DNA from: Globomyces pollinis-pini
Taxonomy: Eukaryota; Chytridiomycota; Chytridiomycetes; Rhizophydiales; Globomycetaceae
Assembly: GCA_025399215.1 (NCBI GenBank)
Contig: MU621405.1
Span: forward strand, 1-19,420
Length of the DNA: 19,420 bases
Direction of reading: 5' to 3'
Of the stretch, positions 5,682-18,198 are shown piece after piece. Each line of letters opens with the position of its first letter. Within the stretch, counting starts at the first letter, position 1. A program made the position numbers and the translations under genes. The notes beneath the pieces are model-generated. The model saw only the letters and a program-made list of their open reading frames with translations, made no database searches and was not told the origin of the DNA.

Positions 5682-8307
5682 CTACTCAATGAAATCATCA
5701 TCTTCCTCTTCTTCTTCTTCATCTTCACAATCCGAATCAGATGAATCATCGTATTCTCCACGTACAGCTTTAGCCTTGCGAACTTTCTTCACCTTGGTAA
5801 CCTCTTCTTCAGTTTCGGATTCTTCATCGGTACTGATATCTTCGTACACTGGGGATTCGGGAATGGCATCATGGGAATCAACAGTAAGCTATGGTCAATT
5901 TTTTCAATAATGTTACCTTGAGATCAAATTGATGGTCACAGGATTGGAATGTATCAGATTTGATGTAGATTTGAAAAGTCCAGGATCCGGGTTCGGGTGG
6001 GGCTTGGAATTGAAGACGTACAGTTTGGTCTTGGGTTGCACCAACAACTTTGGTGTAGGTAATCAAACGACCAATTTTGGCATTGGCAAGAATGACGGTA
6101 TACGTAGGTTTTTTGGTTGCTGCGAAAAATGGACAATGTGGTGCAAATTTATCTTGTTGTTTCTCGGCCCACCATTGTTTGGTTTTCTTTTCTTCTTCTG
6201 GGTCCATAATGGAGGTGTCAATGACAAGTTTAGGGTTGGCACGACCATACTGGAATCGGAACTTGACCGATAAAGTAACAAGTGACGAGGGAACAATGGC
6301 AGGTTCGCCATATACAGAATACTCGGCTTTGGAAATCTTGACTAATGGGTACTTGTCTGCAACGGTTTGAACAATCTTTGCCTTTTCCTTATCCAAATTC
6401 TCCAACAATACTCCACGTTCACGTTCACCAAGTTCAATAAATTTAGGTAAGGTATCAATAGAAACACCATCCACTTCCCACTCCTTGACCATGGCTGCGG
6501 TCACGAATGGTAACTGCAACAATGAAGACTGTCCAGGCAATAATGCTTGTACCAAATACTAATATCATTAAACCTCAAAATGATTACCTGTGAGAAATTC
6601 AAGGTTTGTAGAGTTGCACGTAACCAATTACGACTGACCGAAATCTGAATCAACCCAGCACAGAGTCGAACAGCAATTTCCACAACCTGATCCTGATCTA
6701 CCCATTAACATGACCAAAATACATGATTCAAGTACAGCCGAATCTGGAACAATTCGCAGCAAATGTGCCAACAGCAAATACAATGTATATCGTGAAGTTT
6801 CATTCAAATTGGGATTCTAAAAAAAAAATCAACCACTTTTGTAAAAACCTTTTTCAATGCATTAAAATCAAGTAAAGTGTTATTCTTTAATTTACCCATC
6901 AATTTCACTTCCAACTACCATCAACAACACAAAAAAATAAACCTTTCCGAATTCGGTGGATAAATCAGTATCTGGTTTGAAAACTTGTAAGAATTCGTCA
7001 GCTTGGATAATGATTTCGAGGATTCCTTTGAATTGAACGGTATCTTTTAAATCTCTATAGAAAACTTCCATGGTTGCATTCAATACTTGATTTTTGCTAA
7101 CTACTTTGGCATTTCTCCACCATTGTGCCTATGGTTAGTTTATGTACTGAAAGCATTCGTGTTGGTAATTGACATGTATCATGTAGTGAATTGTTTTCAT
7201 GACAGTATTAATCATCGCCATCAGTAATTGGTATGAGTGATGTGTTTTTAAACATGGCATTTCATTCAAAAAGAAAAAGTATTTAAAAAAGTAAAAGTGC
7301 AAAGAAAGGTAGCAAATCATAACTAAAAATCAACATACCACAACAATAGGCAATCCCAATCCAAACACCACAGTGTACATCAACAACACCAATGACGAAT
7401 TTCCCTTTTCTACCAACCAGGACGGTAAAGCAACACCCAACTGGAACGCTACCATCAACATTTATCTATCCTACCTTGTTTACCATCAGGATGTCCGAAT
7501 TCATCCCAAATGGCTTTGGCTTCAGGGTCAGTCAATACAGTGTATGCTTTGGTCAGATCTACGAATTTTTGGTTTGCTGCTTCTTTTTCCTCTTCCGTTC
7601 CTGGGACGTTTTAGTTTTATTTGTTGTACCTGTTTGGATGTTATGATGAGATGGTTTTTACCTAATTGTTATCATGTATTTGTTGTACCTGTGAATTGTT
7701 AGTTGTAAAAGGTCAACCTTTGATGTTAATTATAGACCCTTCCAACCTACAAGTCAATAAGAAACACAATCACCTTTAAATTTATCCGGATGCCAAATGA
7801 GAGATAATTTTCGATAAGACTTTTTGACAAGTTTTTCATCAGCAGACTGATTGTTAGTGAATATCAAGAAATGAACATACTTGATCGATTCCAAGGATAT
7901 TATAAGGATCCCAGAGTTCAGGTTCCACTTGTTTCAAGGTGTAAGCACAGTAAAAAGTGAATGTAAAGAGTAACCAACCCAAGATGAGTAAAATGTACCT
8001 ATTGTTAGAGGTATTTTTCAAAGATGAATGTAATATGAAATGATCCACTGATGATAGAGAGAATTCAATTAGTGTATAGATATTGAATTAGATTAGAGAT
8101 AGAGTCCTACTTTTTCCAGTTTGTCTTTTTTTGAGAGAATTTAATAGATTTGCGAGCGCATTGAGGACAAGGACAGTTTAAAGGGGGTAGTTTAACAGGT
8201 GACGAGAATAGGGTTGAATAAGAGTACGGTAGTAATAATATTGATAAACAAGCTAAAGAAAAGTAGGAGAATATAGCTCCCGTGTCATCGTAAGCGTATT
8301 GAGCCAT
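5682..8307 (-). CDS. SEC63: SEC63, J-domain subunit of the ER protein translocon
   Basis: Eleven exons (8111-8307, 7881-7998, 7774-7846, 7475-7600, 7339-7448, 6943-7128, 6849-6914, 6723-6816, 6588-6697, 5917-6558, 5682-5888) give 642 residues; yeast Sec63 has 663. It recruits the luminal Hsp70 to the Sec61/62 channel for post-translational import. Three membrane spans (about 14-30, 67-84, 189-208) surround a J domain (DPYNILGI, then SYRKLSLIWHPD with the HPD at 124-126). A Brl/Sec63 domain follows (YLVQALLPGQSSLLQLPF, GSWTFQIYIKSDTFQSCDH), then an acidic tail ending EEEEEEDDDFIE that binds Sec62 in yeast. Introns are 112, 34, 173, 26, 210, 28, 32, 25, 29 and 28 nt. The three long ones fall at or before exons 2, 4 and 6. 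The 173-nt one is a tandem of mini-intron units (listed separately). Confidence 0.96.
7129..7338 (-). other. SEC63 intron 5, the gene's longest (210 nt)
   Basis: Lies between the third membrane span (GLPIVV) and the conserved QWW. It starts GTATGT and ends in a TAAC-containing tract before CATAG. Unlike intron 3 it does not divide into AG|GT-joined units. A 61-codon open frame inside it (7135-7320) has no recognisable similarity. A CTGA followed closely by GATGATT resembles an internal D'/C' pair of a C/D snoRNA, but no terminal D box or closing stem was found. Confidence 0.7.
7601..7773 (-). other. SEC63 intron 3: tandem array of six mini-intron units
   Basis: The splice joins HPDKFK to GTEEEKEAANQKF (phase 1) and restores the J-domain alignment. 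The 173 nt divide exactly, with no leftover base, into six pieces that each begin GT and end AG: 7747-7773 (27), 7718-7746 (29), 7689-7717 (29), 7662-7688 (27), 7630-7661 (32) and 7601-7629 (29), in transcription order. All junctions read AG|GT. Most units carry a branch-like TAAC, TAAA or TGAC 5-15 nt before the AG. Units 4 and 6 share their first 12 nt (GTACAACAAATA), so at least these are copies. Unit size equals that of free-standing introns nearby. Retaining unit 2 as an exon would bring an in-frame stop. Confidence 0.75.
7999..8110 (-). other. SEC63 intron 1 (112 nt) with internal inverted repeat
   Basis: Joins KKTNWKK to YILLILGW (phase 2), just before the second membrane span. It contains an 8-bp inverted repeat (AATTCAAT ... 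ATTGAATT, 11-nt loop) that could hold the donor and acceptor close together. A second possible acceptor, CATCAG, lies midway, but using it would break the frame. Confidence 0.7.
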
Positions 8308-8682: not shown

Positions 8683-9234
8683 ATTTGAAAAAAGTAAAAC
8701 TAAGTAACCCTTACACTAACCCTAATACCTTCAGTAACCTGACCATCACTAACCCTAACTACCATCAGTAACCCTACTTTAACTACCATCAGTAACCCTA
8801 CTTTAATGATGCATAATTAGTAAAAAGTTTAAAGAATATAAAAACTGTTGGTAATGAAACTAAATCCAAATTCAATTGTTTTAATTCATTGTAAATAAAG
8901 GTATAAAGTAAATGAATTTACAAAAGTAATTGTAAACCTAGAGTTTCATCCTTATTTAATGAAAAAATATCAAATGTCTATGGATTAATGGTGACATGGA
9001 AAATGTCCAAGAATGAAACCAAATTAAATTGTTTTATGCAAGATTGGACATTGTGAAAGAAATAAAAATAGTACAATAAGAATACACTTGCTCATAGTCA
9101 GTAATAGGGTTGAGAATCTAATGGAATCACAATGACTGTTAATGAAATACAACATTAAAGAAGCTTATTCAACAAGTAAATATAACCAATAACACCAAGC
9201 TAGAATGCATAGTCTATTAAAAACATGCTTCAAT
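8683..9234. other. Intergenic region between TMA7 and the 95-residue gene
   Basis: Besides the telobox cluster at 8704-8804, the remainder (8805-9234) is AT-rich, with no coding frame that I can support on either strand. It must contain the 3' flank of the 95-residue gene. A CTGTTGGTAATG stretch and a TGATGC near 8807-8813 were considered as snoRNA boxes, but there is no matching box pair. Confidence 0.45.
8704..8804 (-). promoter_or_regulatory. Telobox-rich promoter of TMA7
   Basis: Several TAACCC or AACCCTA motifs (TTAGGG/GGGTTA in the direction of TMA7) lie 20-120 bp upstream of its ATG. The right half is a perfect 24-bp tandem duplication (8757-8780 and 8781-8804). In yeasts such teloboxes bind Tbf1/Reb1-like factors and mark translation-related genes. 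That role is inferred here. Spacing is irregular, so this is not a telomere. Confidence 0.6.
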
Positions 9235-15104: not shown

Positions 15105-16192
15105 TCAATCGAGTAGATATTGGATGCCTTTCAACCAAGGATGCGAAATGACATCTTGAATCATAATTCGATTCGTTGGTTCTTTTGTCAATAATAAAGA
15201 TAAGAGATGTTTAAGATCTGTTGATCCTCGATTATTCAAATTAAAATCCATTTGTTTATCAATAACTTGATCTGAATCTAAAAACGGTAATGAGCGATTC
15301 ATAGCAAGAAACTACCATCAGTAAGTCTAGTGATTTACTAGTGTGATACCAGCAGCCCATATATCAGTAGGTTTACCAAAATGTGGAACATGTAACAAAG
15401 TTTCTACCATCAGTTCATGTTAAAAGTAATACCTGGAGAACAGAATTGTATGGTACCATACAAATCCGTCAATGGTTTATCATTTTGGATCACTATTGCA
15501 TTTCCAAAATCAATCAATTTCACATTTAAATGATCATCAACCAAGATATTCTATAACCATTAATTCAATAAATTAACTTGATCTTTAATATCACGATGAA
15601 TAATGTTTAGCGAATGAAGATAAGAGATGGCTTGAAATGTTTGCATAAATAAGTGTTTGACAATAGATTCATCAATTGGATCAAATAATTCAATGAACCT
15701 TGGAATGAGTGTTTGGGTGGTGATTACTGGAACAGATCTTTGGAATGGGTTTCATGAAAGTCTGGATGAAGGTATTTGAGTTTGGTGGATAGTGGATGTT
15801 GAATGTTGGTCCATTTTGATACCGGACATTCCATGCAGATATAAAAGTTTTTATCATCAGAAAACAAATCTCTAAACATGAATCATTTTGAATCATTTGT
15901 ACCTAGCAATCGGATTAAATCGGATTTCGGAATATTACCTGAATTGGATGATATTAGGATGTTGTAACTTCCTCAATAAATAAGATTCGTAAGGTATCAC
16001 TTTATTATGATCACCCATTCGTTCATTAGATACCCATTGTGGTATATGAAACTTTGGAATCACCTTGATTGCATCCAACGCGCAAGATCTAATGTTTTTG
16101 GCCAAAACAACCTGTCCAAATGCACCACCTCCAATCACCTCTACTGGGATGTAATGGTTTGTTATCAAATGTCGCTTCTCCAATTCAATCAT
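15105..16192 (-). CDS. Ser/Thr protein kinase, PAS-kinase-like catalytic domain (copy 1)
   Basis: Six exons (15939-16192, 15728-15871, 15578-15698, 15433-15550, 15339-15403, 15105-15311) give 302 residues, essentially a kinase domain alone. Seen: glycine loop IGGGAFGQV (20-28), ATP lysine K43 in AIKVI, catalytic HRDIKDQN (D169), DFG (187-189), SPE in place of APE, DIWAAG, and a final NRIMIQDVISHPW. Blocks such as KVIPKFHIPQWVSNERMG and DLFQFIELFDPIDESIVKHL resemble PAS kinase (PSK1/PASK) better than other families. PAS kinases couple nutrient state to translation and sugar storage; no PAS domain is visible upstream. Introns are 67, 29, 27, 29 and 27 nt. The first is a double mini-intron. All catalytic residues are present. 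Confidence 0.92.
15872..15938 (-). other. Kinase 1 intron 1: two mini-intron units back to back
   Basis: The 67 nt between NIIQF and RDLFSDDKNFY split into 15903-15938 (36 nt) and 15872-15902 (31 nt). Each starts GT and ends TAG, with an AG|GT junction and no exon base between them. Keeping the second unit as an exon would introduce a TGA within three codons. Each unit has its own TTTAAT- or TGAT-type branch-like site. Confidence 0.75.
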
Positions 16193-16811
16193 ATCAGAAA
16201 GGTAAAGAATTACTTCGATCTCTATTTAGCTTTCATGTGTCTTTTTTATGCATATTCTTAAATTTTTCCGAAATTCGGATTTTTTGGATTTTTCAAATCC
16301 GAATTATTTTTTAGATTGGGCACATGTTATCAGTGACTCGATTTGAATCAACAATCAAGTTTTTGATAACAATATCTGGACTTACACTAAAGTTCCCAAA
16401 ATTATTAAATTTGGTTCGCGTTTATAAATCCGGTTGAATTAACAACATCCGGTAATGATATGTAGTATATCTGTTATGACTAACATTAGCAAAGCATCTC
16501 TAGTAAATAGCTGGGTATTCGGAACGATTCCTAAAATCAATAGCTACTAAAACCAGTATCAAACTTAAGTGATTGTTGGCACTACTTGTATATCAACATG
16601 TTGTGGGAATGTCATGATTGACAACTGTTACCAAGTTTACTAATTAATCCTCTCTAAATCACAGATTGTTCTTATAAACCTATTCCAATTAGATTAACAA
16701 AACTAGAAAGTTTCAACAAATTATAGAAGGTATTATATTAAAAAGACAATGGCCCACTCAATGTACTATCAGGCATTGTTGAGCGCAAGTCCAAATGGAA
16801 ATCCATGGATA
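16193..16811. other. Spacer between the tandem kinases
   Basis: Contains the kinase 1 promoter (right of 16192) and the kinase 2 3' flank, part of which resembles the kinase 1 3' flank (TATAGAAGGTATTATATT, 16723-16740). No coding frame was supported. A CCGAAATTCGG palindrome is listed separately. Confidence 0.5.
16268..16300 (-). promoter_or_regulatory. Palindromic motif pair upstream of kinase 1
   Basis: CCGAAATTCGG (16268-16278) and the interrupted palindrome GGATTTTTCAAATCC (16286-16300) lie about 75-110 bp before the ATG. The same pair occurs before kinase 2, while much of the sequence in between has diverged, so they are candidate binding sites. CCG-N5-CGG spacing would suit a fungal zinc-cluster factor; that is an inference. 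Confidence 0.5.
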
Positions 16812-17895
16812 TCAGTCACAGAGACATTGTAAGCCTTTCAACCAGGGATGCGAAATGACTTCTTGAATCGTGATTCGATTCGTTGGTTCTTTTGTCAATA
16901 ATAAAGATAAGAGATGTTTAAGATCTGTTGATCCTCGATTATTCAATTTAAAATCCATTTGTTTATGAATAACTTGATCTGAATCTAAAAACGGTAATGA
17001 GCGATTCATAGCAAGAAACTACCATCAGTAAGTCTAGTGATTTACGAGTGTGATACCAGCAGCCCATATATCAGTAGGTTTACCAAAATGTGGAACATGT
17101 AACAAAGTTTCTACCATAAGTTCTTGTCAAAAGTAATACCTGGAGAACAGAATTGTATGGTACCATACAAATCCGTCAATGGTTTATCATTTTGGATCAC
17201 TATTGCATTTCCAAAATCAATCAATTTCACATTTAAATGATCATCAACCAAGATATTCTATAACCATTAATTCAATAAATTAACTTGATCTTTAATATCA
17301 CGATGAATAATGTTTAGCGAATGTAGATAAGAGATGGCTTGAAATGTTTGCATAAATAAGTGTTTGACAATAGATTCATCAATTGGATCAAATAATTCAA
17401 TAAACCTTGGAATGAGTGTTTGGATAGTGATTACTGGAACAGATCTTTGGAATGGGATTCATGAAAGTCTGGATGAAGGTATTTGAGTTTAGTGGATAGT
17501 GGATGTTGAATGTTACTCCAATTGGATACCGGACATTCCATACAGATATAAAAGTTTTTATCATCAGAAAACAAGTCTCTAATCATGAATCATTTTGAAT
17601 CATTATACCTAATCGGATTAAATCGGATTTCGGAATATTACCTGAATTGGATGATATTAGGATGGTTTAATTTCTCCAATAAGTAAGCTTCGTAAGGTAC
17701 TATCAAACTAGGAACATTCATTTTTTCATTTGATGCCCAAGTTTTTATTTGAGACTTTGGAATGACCTTGATCGCATCCAACAGGCAAGATTTAATATTT
17801 TCCGCCAGTAGAACTTTTCCGAAAGCACCATTTCCGATCATATTCAAAGGGATGTAAGTTTTAGATAACGAATGTCTGTTGTCTAATTGAATCAT
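16812..17895 (-). CDS. Ser/Thr protein kinase, PAS-kinase-like catalytic domain (copy 2)
   Basis: Six exons (17642-17895, 17435-17578, 17285-17405, 17140-17257, 17046-17110, 16812-17018) give 302 residues with the same exon lengths and phases as copy 1. Glycine loop IGNGAFGKV, AIKVI, HRDIKDQN, DFG, SPE and DIWAAG are intact, so this copy should also be active. Exon 1 differs at about four in ten residues from copy 1 (MIQLDNRHSLSKTYIPLNMI against MIELEKRHLITNHYIPVEVI), whereas exon 4 is identical in DNA, and exons 3 and 5 differ by only one or two bases. The division of labour is unknown; the diverged N-lobe could change activators. Introns are 63 (33+30), 29, 27, 29 and 27 nt. Confidence 0.92.
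17579..17641 (-). other. Kinase 2 intron 1: two mini-intron units back to back
   Basis: The 63 nt split into 17609-17641 (33 nt) and 17579-17608 (30 nt), joined AG|GT, at the same place as in copy 1. Copy 1 reads TTGCTAG|GTACAAATG where copy 2 reads TTAG|GTATAATG: indels fall on both sides of the junction but the AGGT itself is kept. Confidence 0.75.
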
Positions 17896-18198
17896 ATTAG
17901 AAAGTTAAAGAATTACTGTCATCAATTGCTGCTTATTTAAACTTTCAGGTGATGATTATGCATCCGAAATTCGGAATTTTTGGATTTTTGAATCCGATTC
18001 CTTTAAACTTTTTTTTTTCCAGACTTCAAAAAGAGAAAAAAAAAAACTTTCTCTTTGGCACAGTTACCGGTAGTTATGCTTTTACCTGTACCTCGACTTC
18101 AAACAAGGATTCGATTTCAAGTATTTTATCTCCAACATTAAAATTTCAATGCCAAAGAGGATGTTATTATATTAAAGATTGAGAATTGACTACTACAA
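17896..18198. other. Spacer between kinase 2 and the hexosaminidase
   Basis: Holds the kinase 2 promoter, an inverted repeat (AAAGAGAAA at 18030-18038 with TTTCTCTTT at 18048-18056) and the hexosaminidase 3' flank. A plus-strand frame (17949-18182) reads GSYAFTCTSTSNKDS but begins with promoter palindromes and poly(T), so it is not called. Confidence 0.45.
17964..17995 (-). promoter_or_regulatory. Palindromic motif pair upstream of kinase 2
   Basis: CCGAAATTCGG (17964-17974) and GGATTTTTGAATCC (17982-17995), 70-100 bp before the ATG, match the pair before kinase 1. Related ATCCGAT-type repeats also occur in the first unit of intron 1 of both kinases. Confidence 0.5.

Follow-up and report, generated by a model that had tools for sequence, protein, structure and literature searches.

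Arrays of abutting mini-introns in SEC63 and across the genome of the chytrid Globomyces pollinis-pini

Introduction

The origin and lengthening of introns have long been debated, and recent duplicates of entire introns are, to our knowledge, rarely seen. The SEC63 gene of Globomyces pollinis-pini, a culturable saprotroph (chytrid, Rhizophydiales), has a third intron that can be cut into six much smaller GT...AG units. We asked whether this intron is a set of complete mini-introns, whether such sets recur in the genome, how they may be removed, and how they may have arisen.

Intron 3 of SEC63 is an array of six units

The SEC63 gene lies on the minus strand of the window (the whole stretch of DNA analyzed, 19,420 nt). 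A ten-intron model of the gene was identical to the public protein P0001 ("Sec63 Brl domain-containing protein [Globomyces pollinis-pini]," 781 aa) over the first 641 of 642 residues. The coding region, the six units of intron 3, and the other nine introns are as follows.

5682..8307, minus strand: SEC63 coding region including start and stop codons, interrupted by ten introns and encoding 642 residues (gene model and P0001)
7999..8110, minus strand: long non-array intron of 112 nt lacking AGGT junctions (model and P0001)
7847..7880, minus strand: single mini-intron, 34 nt (model and P0001)
7747..7773, minus strand: intron 3 unit 1, 27 nt, branch-like TTGAC (sequence)
7718..7746, minus strand: intron 3 unit 2, 29 nt, branch-like TTAAC (sequence)
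7689..7717, minus strand: intron 3 unit 3, 29 nt, branch-like CTAAC (sequence)
7662..7688, minus strand: intron 3 unit 4, 27 nt, branch-like ATAAC, first 12 bases the same as those of unit 6 (sequence)
7630..7661, minus strand: intron 3 unit 5, 32 nt, branch-like ATAAC (sequence)
7601..7629, minus strand: intron 3 unit 6, 29 nt, branch-like CTAAA (sequence)
7449..7474, minus strand: single mini-intron, 26 nt (model and P0001)
7129..7338, minus strand: long non-array intron of 210 nt lacking AGGT junctions (model and P0001)
6915..6942, minus strand: single mini-intron, 28 nt (model and P0001, gene finder)
6817..6848, minus strand: single mini-intron, 32 nt (model and P0001, gene finder)
6698..6722, minus strand: single mini-intron, 25 nt (model and P0001)
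6559..6587, minus strand: single mini-intron, 29 nt (model and P0001)
5889..5916, minus strand: single mini-intron, 28 nt (model and P0001, gene finder)

Besides the array, the gene contained seven introns of 25 to 34 nt and two long introns (112 and 210 nt). A candidate intron of 126 nt was rejected, as P0001 shows two mini-introns flanking a 66-nt exon. P0001 extends beyond the Sec63 stop codon (window 5681 and below), and its tail includes residues of the open frame 4791-4333. Short, imperfect repeats of the CTAACCCT / ACTACCATCAGTAACCCT type were seen by eye at window positions 8690-8800.

A reading made from the sequence only had proposed that intron 3 consists of six exact GT...AG units joined at five AG/GT junctions, and this was confirmed. 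The 173 nt of the intron (7773-7601, minus strand) were divided into units of 27, 29, 29, 27, 32, and 29 nt, each GT...AG, with zero leftover bases. AGGT occurred five times, each time at a unit junction. The exon ends around the intron were backed both by the Sec63 frame (...HPDKFK/GTEEEK...) and by P0001. The 1332 AGGT occurrences in 438,840 strand-bases of a 219-kb genome sample gave an expectation of approximately 0.5 per 170 nt, in line with the earlier estimate of less than one by chance in such a length. Mononucleotide shuffles of the intron (n = 100,000) contained five or more AGGT in a single case and tiled exactly in none. Tiling was likewise absent from all 984 genuine GT..AG stretches of 173 nt taken from 190 kb of the genome. 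A branch-point-like motif was detected in all six units, with 6 to 10 nt separating the motif from the unit end; the strict form of the motif (YTRAY, 4 to 13 nt before the unit end) was present in units 1 to 3 only. These results indicated that the 173-nt intron of SEC63 is made up of six complete abutting spliceosomal mini-introns with no exon between them.

The 12 starting bases previously noted as common to two units are real (units 4 and 6) but are weak evidence of a relationship, because 1.6% of unit pairs between different arrays align as well as these two and the SEC63 array offers 15 pairs. Pairwise alignment of the units of this array detected no significantly similar pair.

Recurrence of arrays across the genome

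The Globomyces pollinis-pini genome (18.5 Mb, 459 contigs) was searched for AGGT sequences at mini-intron spacing. Pairs of AGGT exhibited a modest excess on spacing alone (34 at 27 to 29 nt versus about 12) because a single intron at an AG/GT exon site makes a pair too, and triplets were therefore used. With 144 spacings permitted both in the search and in its spacing control, 888 AGGT triplets (426 + 462) were detected at 23- to 34-nt spacing and 196 (100 + 96) at 40- to 51-nt spacing. For the stricter junction TAGGTA, the corresponding numbers were 99 (42 + 57) and 0. The search for tiling introns proposed in the sequence-only reading, run in this pattern form, thus came out positive. Counted by sequence pattern alone, the 99 TAGGTA matches represented 61 loci and 160 units, the number of units between strict junctions being two in 39 loci, three in 12, four in 5, five in 4, and six in 1.

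A second control, in which the pattern was reversed, exceeded the loose AGGT pattern (318 + 354 versus 91 + 108, and 896 + 1029 versus 426 + 462 in a second search) and, taken alone, counts against the finding. The core of the reversed pattern, TGGA, was twice as common as AGGT (2672 versus 1332 in the 219-kb sample), and the matches of the reversed pattern were barely dependent on spacing (1925 versus 1841 at the control spacing), whereas those of AGGT dropped from 888 to 196. With TAGGTA, the reversed control yielded 8 matches versus 99. The spacing controls led us to reject the explanation that the arrays are due to chance or are an ordinary minisatellite containing AGGT. Some loose-pattern matches are indeed plain repeats (L003, L007) and others resemble coding repeats by eye (C2:36466, C1:106153), but most arrays are not sequence repeats and yet retain the branch motif and a depletion of AG, and we consider this explanation highly improbable. 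Overall, these searches indicated that Globomyces pollinis-pini carries such arrays across its genome, the longest one read having ten units.

Introns were also predicted from sequence in the 219-kb sample by a simple gene finder, for which the Globomyces genome itself served as the training set. On SEC63, the gene finder placed nine of ten introns exactly and misplaced the start of intron 1. It predicted 527 introns in the sample, of which 453 were 23 to 38 nt and 74 were at least 50 nt, with a commonest length of 28 to 29 nt; the absence of introns of 39 to 49 nt (0 of 527) may be a prediction artifact. Together with the seven SEC63 introns of 25 to 34 nt, these lengths bore out the statement that single introns share the size range of the units. 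Exact tiling with AGGT junctions was observed in 6 of the 74 predicted introns of at least 50 nt versus an expectation of 0.17 from shuffles, three of the six being inside the window. The rank of AGGT among tetranucleotides (6 tiled introns, compared to 5 each for TAGG and TTTA) gives a thin margin on its own, because TAGG overlaps the same junctions and TTTA is four times as frequent, and the shuffle expectation is the stronger figure. Several of the loci studied had been selected for their content (L029 to L046 for many pattern matches, L047 for a 41-nt repeat, and L020 for array content), and unbiased figures are those of the genome-wide counts and of a 19-locus subset with 463 predicted introns, in which 3 tiled among 60 of at least 50 nt.

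Two of the arrays predicted in the window were in neighboring paralogues.

17579..17641, minus strand: predicted two-unit array, 33 + 30 nt, in a gene resembling a protein kinase (gene finder)
15872..15938, minus strand: predicted two-unit array, 36 + 31 nt, in the neighboring paralogue of the kinase-like gene (gene finder)

The two kinase-like regions (window 15493-16214 and 17200-17920) exhibited 88% DNA identity, with a predicted two-unit array in each. A 3-base indel adjoined the array junction, which was intact in both copies, and 61 of 63 aligned array bases were identical, with 4 gap columns. This pair is uninformative on selection because the part downstream of the array is 97% identical too.

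Arrays within predicted genes

To define a set of arrays within genes, 37 AGGT chains were examined in the fetched loci. Nineteen were kept, 12 were classed as intergenic, 4 were in predicted introns of more than 60 nt, and 2 were dropped by hand as coding (L005 minus and L030 at 1111); the set did not include L003, L004, L007, or L029, which are plain repeats or overlapping copies. The 19 arrays had 3 to 10 units each and 98 units in all, and their removal gave an unbroken predicted frame. A Pfam scan of 10 of the spliced proteins detected a domain crossing the join in 7, as follows.

Protein kinase domain: across the join left by a 5-unit array
Tfb2 domain: 3 units
PhyH domain: 10 units
GDSL lipase domain: 9 units
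NIF phosphatase domain: 5 units
Snf7 domain: 10 units
CoaE domain: 4 units

In the other three of the ten, the domain did not cross the join (an asparaginase, an OTU protein, and an MCM protein, in which the match begins at the join). The Snf7 protein is VPS24, and removal of its ten-unit array (locus L038, C4:31001-32900) gave LAKE^VVNSKKAKNRIITSKAQLNS (LAKE^VVNSKKA), where Boothiomyces has LAKEVVASKKAINRIITSKAQLGS (LAKEVVASKKA).

Two further loci were observed with other arrangements. In L034 (C68:15001-17000), six 27-nt units, the last three near identical, occupy positions 877-1038. By eye, this array follows the ATGG of a dehydrogenase-like gene, though it had been classed as intergenic in the chain set, and its first unit and the downstream exon share the start GTAAAAGA. 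In L047 (C1:20901-22900, reverse strand, approximately C1:21966-21710), six 15-nt exons (ATATGATGATAGAAG-like) lie between seven mini-introns of 25 to 30 nt. These are tandem copies of exon plus intron at the start of the apparent kinase gene of L001, and the five-unit array of L001 seems to be part of this gene as well.

Splice signals within units and the mode of removal

The units of the arrays were compared with predicted single introns. Unit length (mean, 28.79 nt; SD, 2.67; n = 98) was similar to that of 453 predicted single introns (28.56 nt; SD, 2.73), and no significant correlation of unit lengths within arrays was detected (P = 0.15). The strict branch motif was present in 53% of 60 internal units, 47% of 19 first units, and 42% of 19 last units, compared to 62% of 72 single introns from a prediction that made no use of the motif and 17% of internal units after shuffling. 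Of the 160 units in the genome-wide strict set, 52% had the motif versus a control value of 18% (SD, 3%), with a peak 5 to 10 nt from the unit end. Among units dissimilar to all others of their own array, the value was comparable (49% of 61, including 50% of 34 internal units, versus 16% after shuffling). Within the 14 nt that precede the acceptor, AG dinucleotides numbered 0.18 per internal unit, 0.19 in single introns, and about 0.46 in shuffled sequences. The strict motif was absent from half of the 98 array units and from 38% of the 72 single introns. A GTA start was rarer in array units (65 of 98) than in predicted single introns (406 of 453, or 67 of 72 in the first set), a comparison affected by the preference of the gene finder for GTA. 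By these statistics, the internal units appear to have splice signals like those of single introns.

These signals bear on how an array leaves the transcript. An AG/GT junction could act as both acceptor and donor, so the removal of any single unit would leave a working junction. The units could then be removed one at a time and in any order, a form of recursive splicing via zero-length exons that would always yield the same mRNA. A duplicated intron would therefore be nearly invisible to the protein and could accumulate. If removal occurred in one step only, the internal signals of diverged units would be expected to have decayed, and their retention therefore points, indirectly, to unit-by-unit recognition; it is the main argument for this mode of removal.

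Alternatively, the first donor and the last acceptor could be used as a pair to remove the whole array at once, the internal units being splicing-inactive remnants of duplication. The 112- and 210-nt introns of SEC63 are without AGGT junctions and are also absent from the public protein, so that one-step splicing of long introns is probably possible in this organism, and the gene finder predicted 74 introns of at least 50 nt. Evidence against this alternative is that internal units retain the branch motif and are depleted of AG even with no similarity to their array partners, and that the motif has no positional gradient from first (47%) through internal (53%) to last (42%) units; we regard it as unlikely. 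Unit-by-unit removal, one of the two modes put forward in the sequence-only reading, thus gains indirect support from the internal signals, while the two long SEC63 introns leave room for a single step.

A fixed order of removal would be imposed if the units were nested introns (stwintrons), in which one intron interrupts the splice signal of another and must go first. Such introns are documented in fungi (PMC8469720, PMC9024468, PMC7138796). The units in the arrays read are complete and abutting, no splice signal among them is interrupted by another intron, and no inner unit needs prior removal, which makes nesting a very improbable explanation here.

Origin of the units

Similarity between units was used to examine how the arrays were enlarged. 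Of 99 pairs of adjacent units, 23 were more similar than the 99.9th percentile for units from different loci, and these pairs came from 14 of 61 loci. In the PhyH array, identical, similar, and unrelated units lie side by side, a mixture that would be expected from repeated duplication and divergence. The similarity of neighboring units was not reached in any of 500 reshufflings of units among arrays, also when the PhyH array was excluded, although a locally shared base composition could add to this similarity. These comparisons suggested that whole introns have been duplicated in tandem, clearly so at the 14 loci. The earlier proposal of repeated insertion or duplication of introns is therefore supported, as duplication, at these loci, and is not demonstrable in the SEC63 array; for this array and the remaining loci, old duplication and separate insertion appear indistinguishable.

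The units could instead be separate insertions, each made by an intron (an introner-like element or a reverse-spliced lariat) that entered the AG/GT site of the previous one. This would be consistent with the 47 of 61 loci that have no neighbor pair above the 99.9th percentile and with the lack of a significant pair in the SEC63 array. The exons flanking arrays of at least five units (n = 9) also have the ends that a proto-splice site predicts, the upstream exon ending in AG in 6 of 9 (versus 31% of single introns; P = 0.03) and the downstream exon beginning with GT in 5 of 9 (versus 11%; P = 0.001), but these counts come from a nonrandom sample chosen for AGGT matches. Evidence against separate insertion is that no family shared between loci was seen among the 98 units compared, for which the best of 4502 between-array similarity scores was 12 compared to 24 within one array, and that neighbors are more similar than reshuffled units even without the clearest array. 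In our view, separate insertion is unlikely. The exon ends just described would also mean that the founding intron was bounded by AGGT on either side, which would be a natural substrate for slippage. The signature expected of target-site or exon duplication was sought by comparing intron ends with exon ends in the 453 single introns: similarity between intron start and next exon start was not above chance (mean, 0.497 versus 0.494), and that between intron end and upstream exon end was weak (0.954 versus 0.933; SD, 0.013).

Discussion

The reading that we favor, with a probability of roughly 0.7, is that the arrays are functional mini-introns, enlarged in part or more by tandem duplication of whole introns, with the units probably leaving one after another by way of zero-length exons. 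The component processes are already known, with published accounts of recursive splicing at zero-length exons, of AGGT sites with dual specificity, of stwintrons, and of introns gained by tandem duplication.

In long animal introns, recursive splicing proceeds stepwise via zero-length exons (ratchet points) with juxtaposed AG/GT (PMC5126111, PMC8605326). Globomyces arrays resemble these in having AG/GT junctions inside an intron (all five AGGT in SEC63, and the genome-wide excess), but the animal process subdivides long introns, whereas each Globomyces array consists of three to ten abutting whole introns of approximately 29 nt. The human polyubiquitin gene UBC has dual-specific sites in which AGGT serves as donor or acceptor in a regularly spaced tandem array (PMC10809524), and a tandem arrangement of AGGT at regular spacing is shared by Globomyces. 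The UBC segments are 228-nt coding monomers that give varied isoforms, whereas the Globomyces segments are noncoding and must all be removed for a conserved protein. Ascomycete stwintrons (spliceosomal twin introns) are complex intervening sequences removed by consecutive reactions (PMC8469720, PMC9024468, PMC7138796); the arrays are likewise complex intervening sequences in a fungus, and their removal would also be consecutive. Stwintrons are nested and have a fixed inside-out order, while Globomyces units are complete, abut in numbers of up to ten, and have no imposed order. In known intron gain by tandem duplication, AGGT supplies the new splice sites and an exonic or boundary segment becomes an intron (PMC3443670, PMC4974935), whereas in Globomyces existing whole introns would be copied into arrays. 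The ultra-short introns of ciliates, near 25 nt, are similar in size to the units, and the abstract makes no mention of end-to-end arrays (PMC5014332). The sequence-only reading could put no name to an abutting six-unit array, and none was described among the literature matches listed (titles and abstract starts, with most subscription papers and bioRxiv preprints outside this set), so that its absence from the literature is unproved.

A broader possibility, which we put forward tentatively, is that a mini-intron flanked by AG/GT duplicates in place, that its copies are spliced independently, and that the array, because it leaves the protein unchanged, ratchets up to at least ten units, plain long introns being decayed arrays, the 112- and 210-nt introns of SEC63 perhaps among them. 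If such in-place multiplication occurs and long introns are its decayed products, intron length would increase by one-intron steps. With at least 61 strict-junction loci, in which neighboring units range from identical to unrelated, the growth, divergence, and stepwise splicing of arrays are open to ordinary RNA sequencing.

Gene annotation can be led astray by arrays, too. P0121, the public model of Globomyces VPS24/CHMP3, has 158 residues, begins within the ten-unit array, and is without the conserved N-terminal part; other public gene models may be damaged by arrays in the same way.
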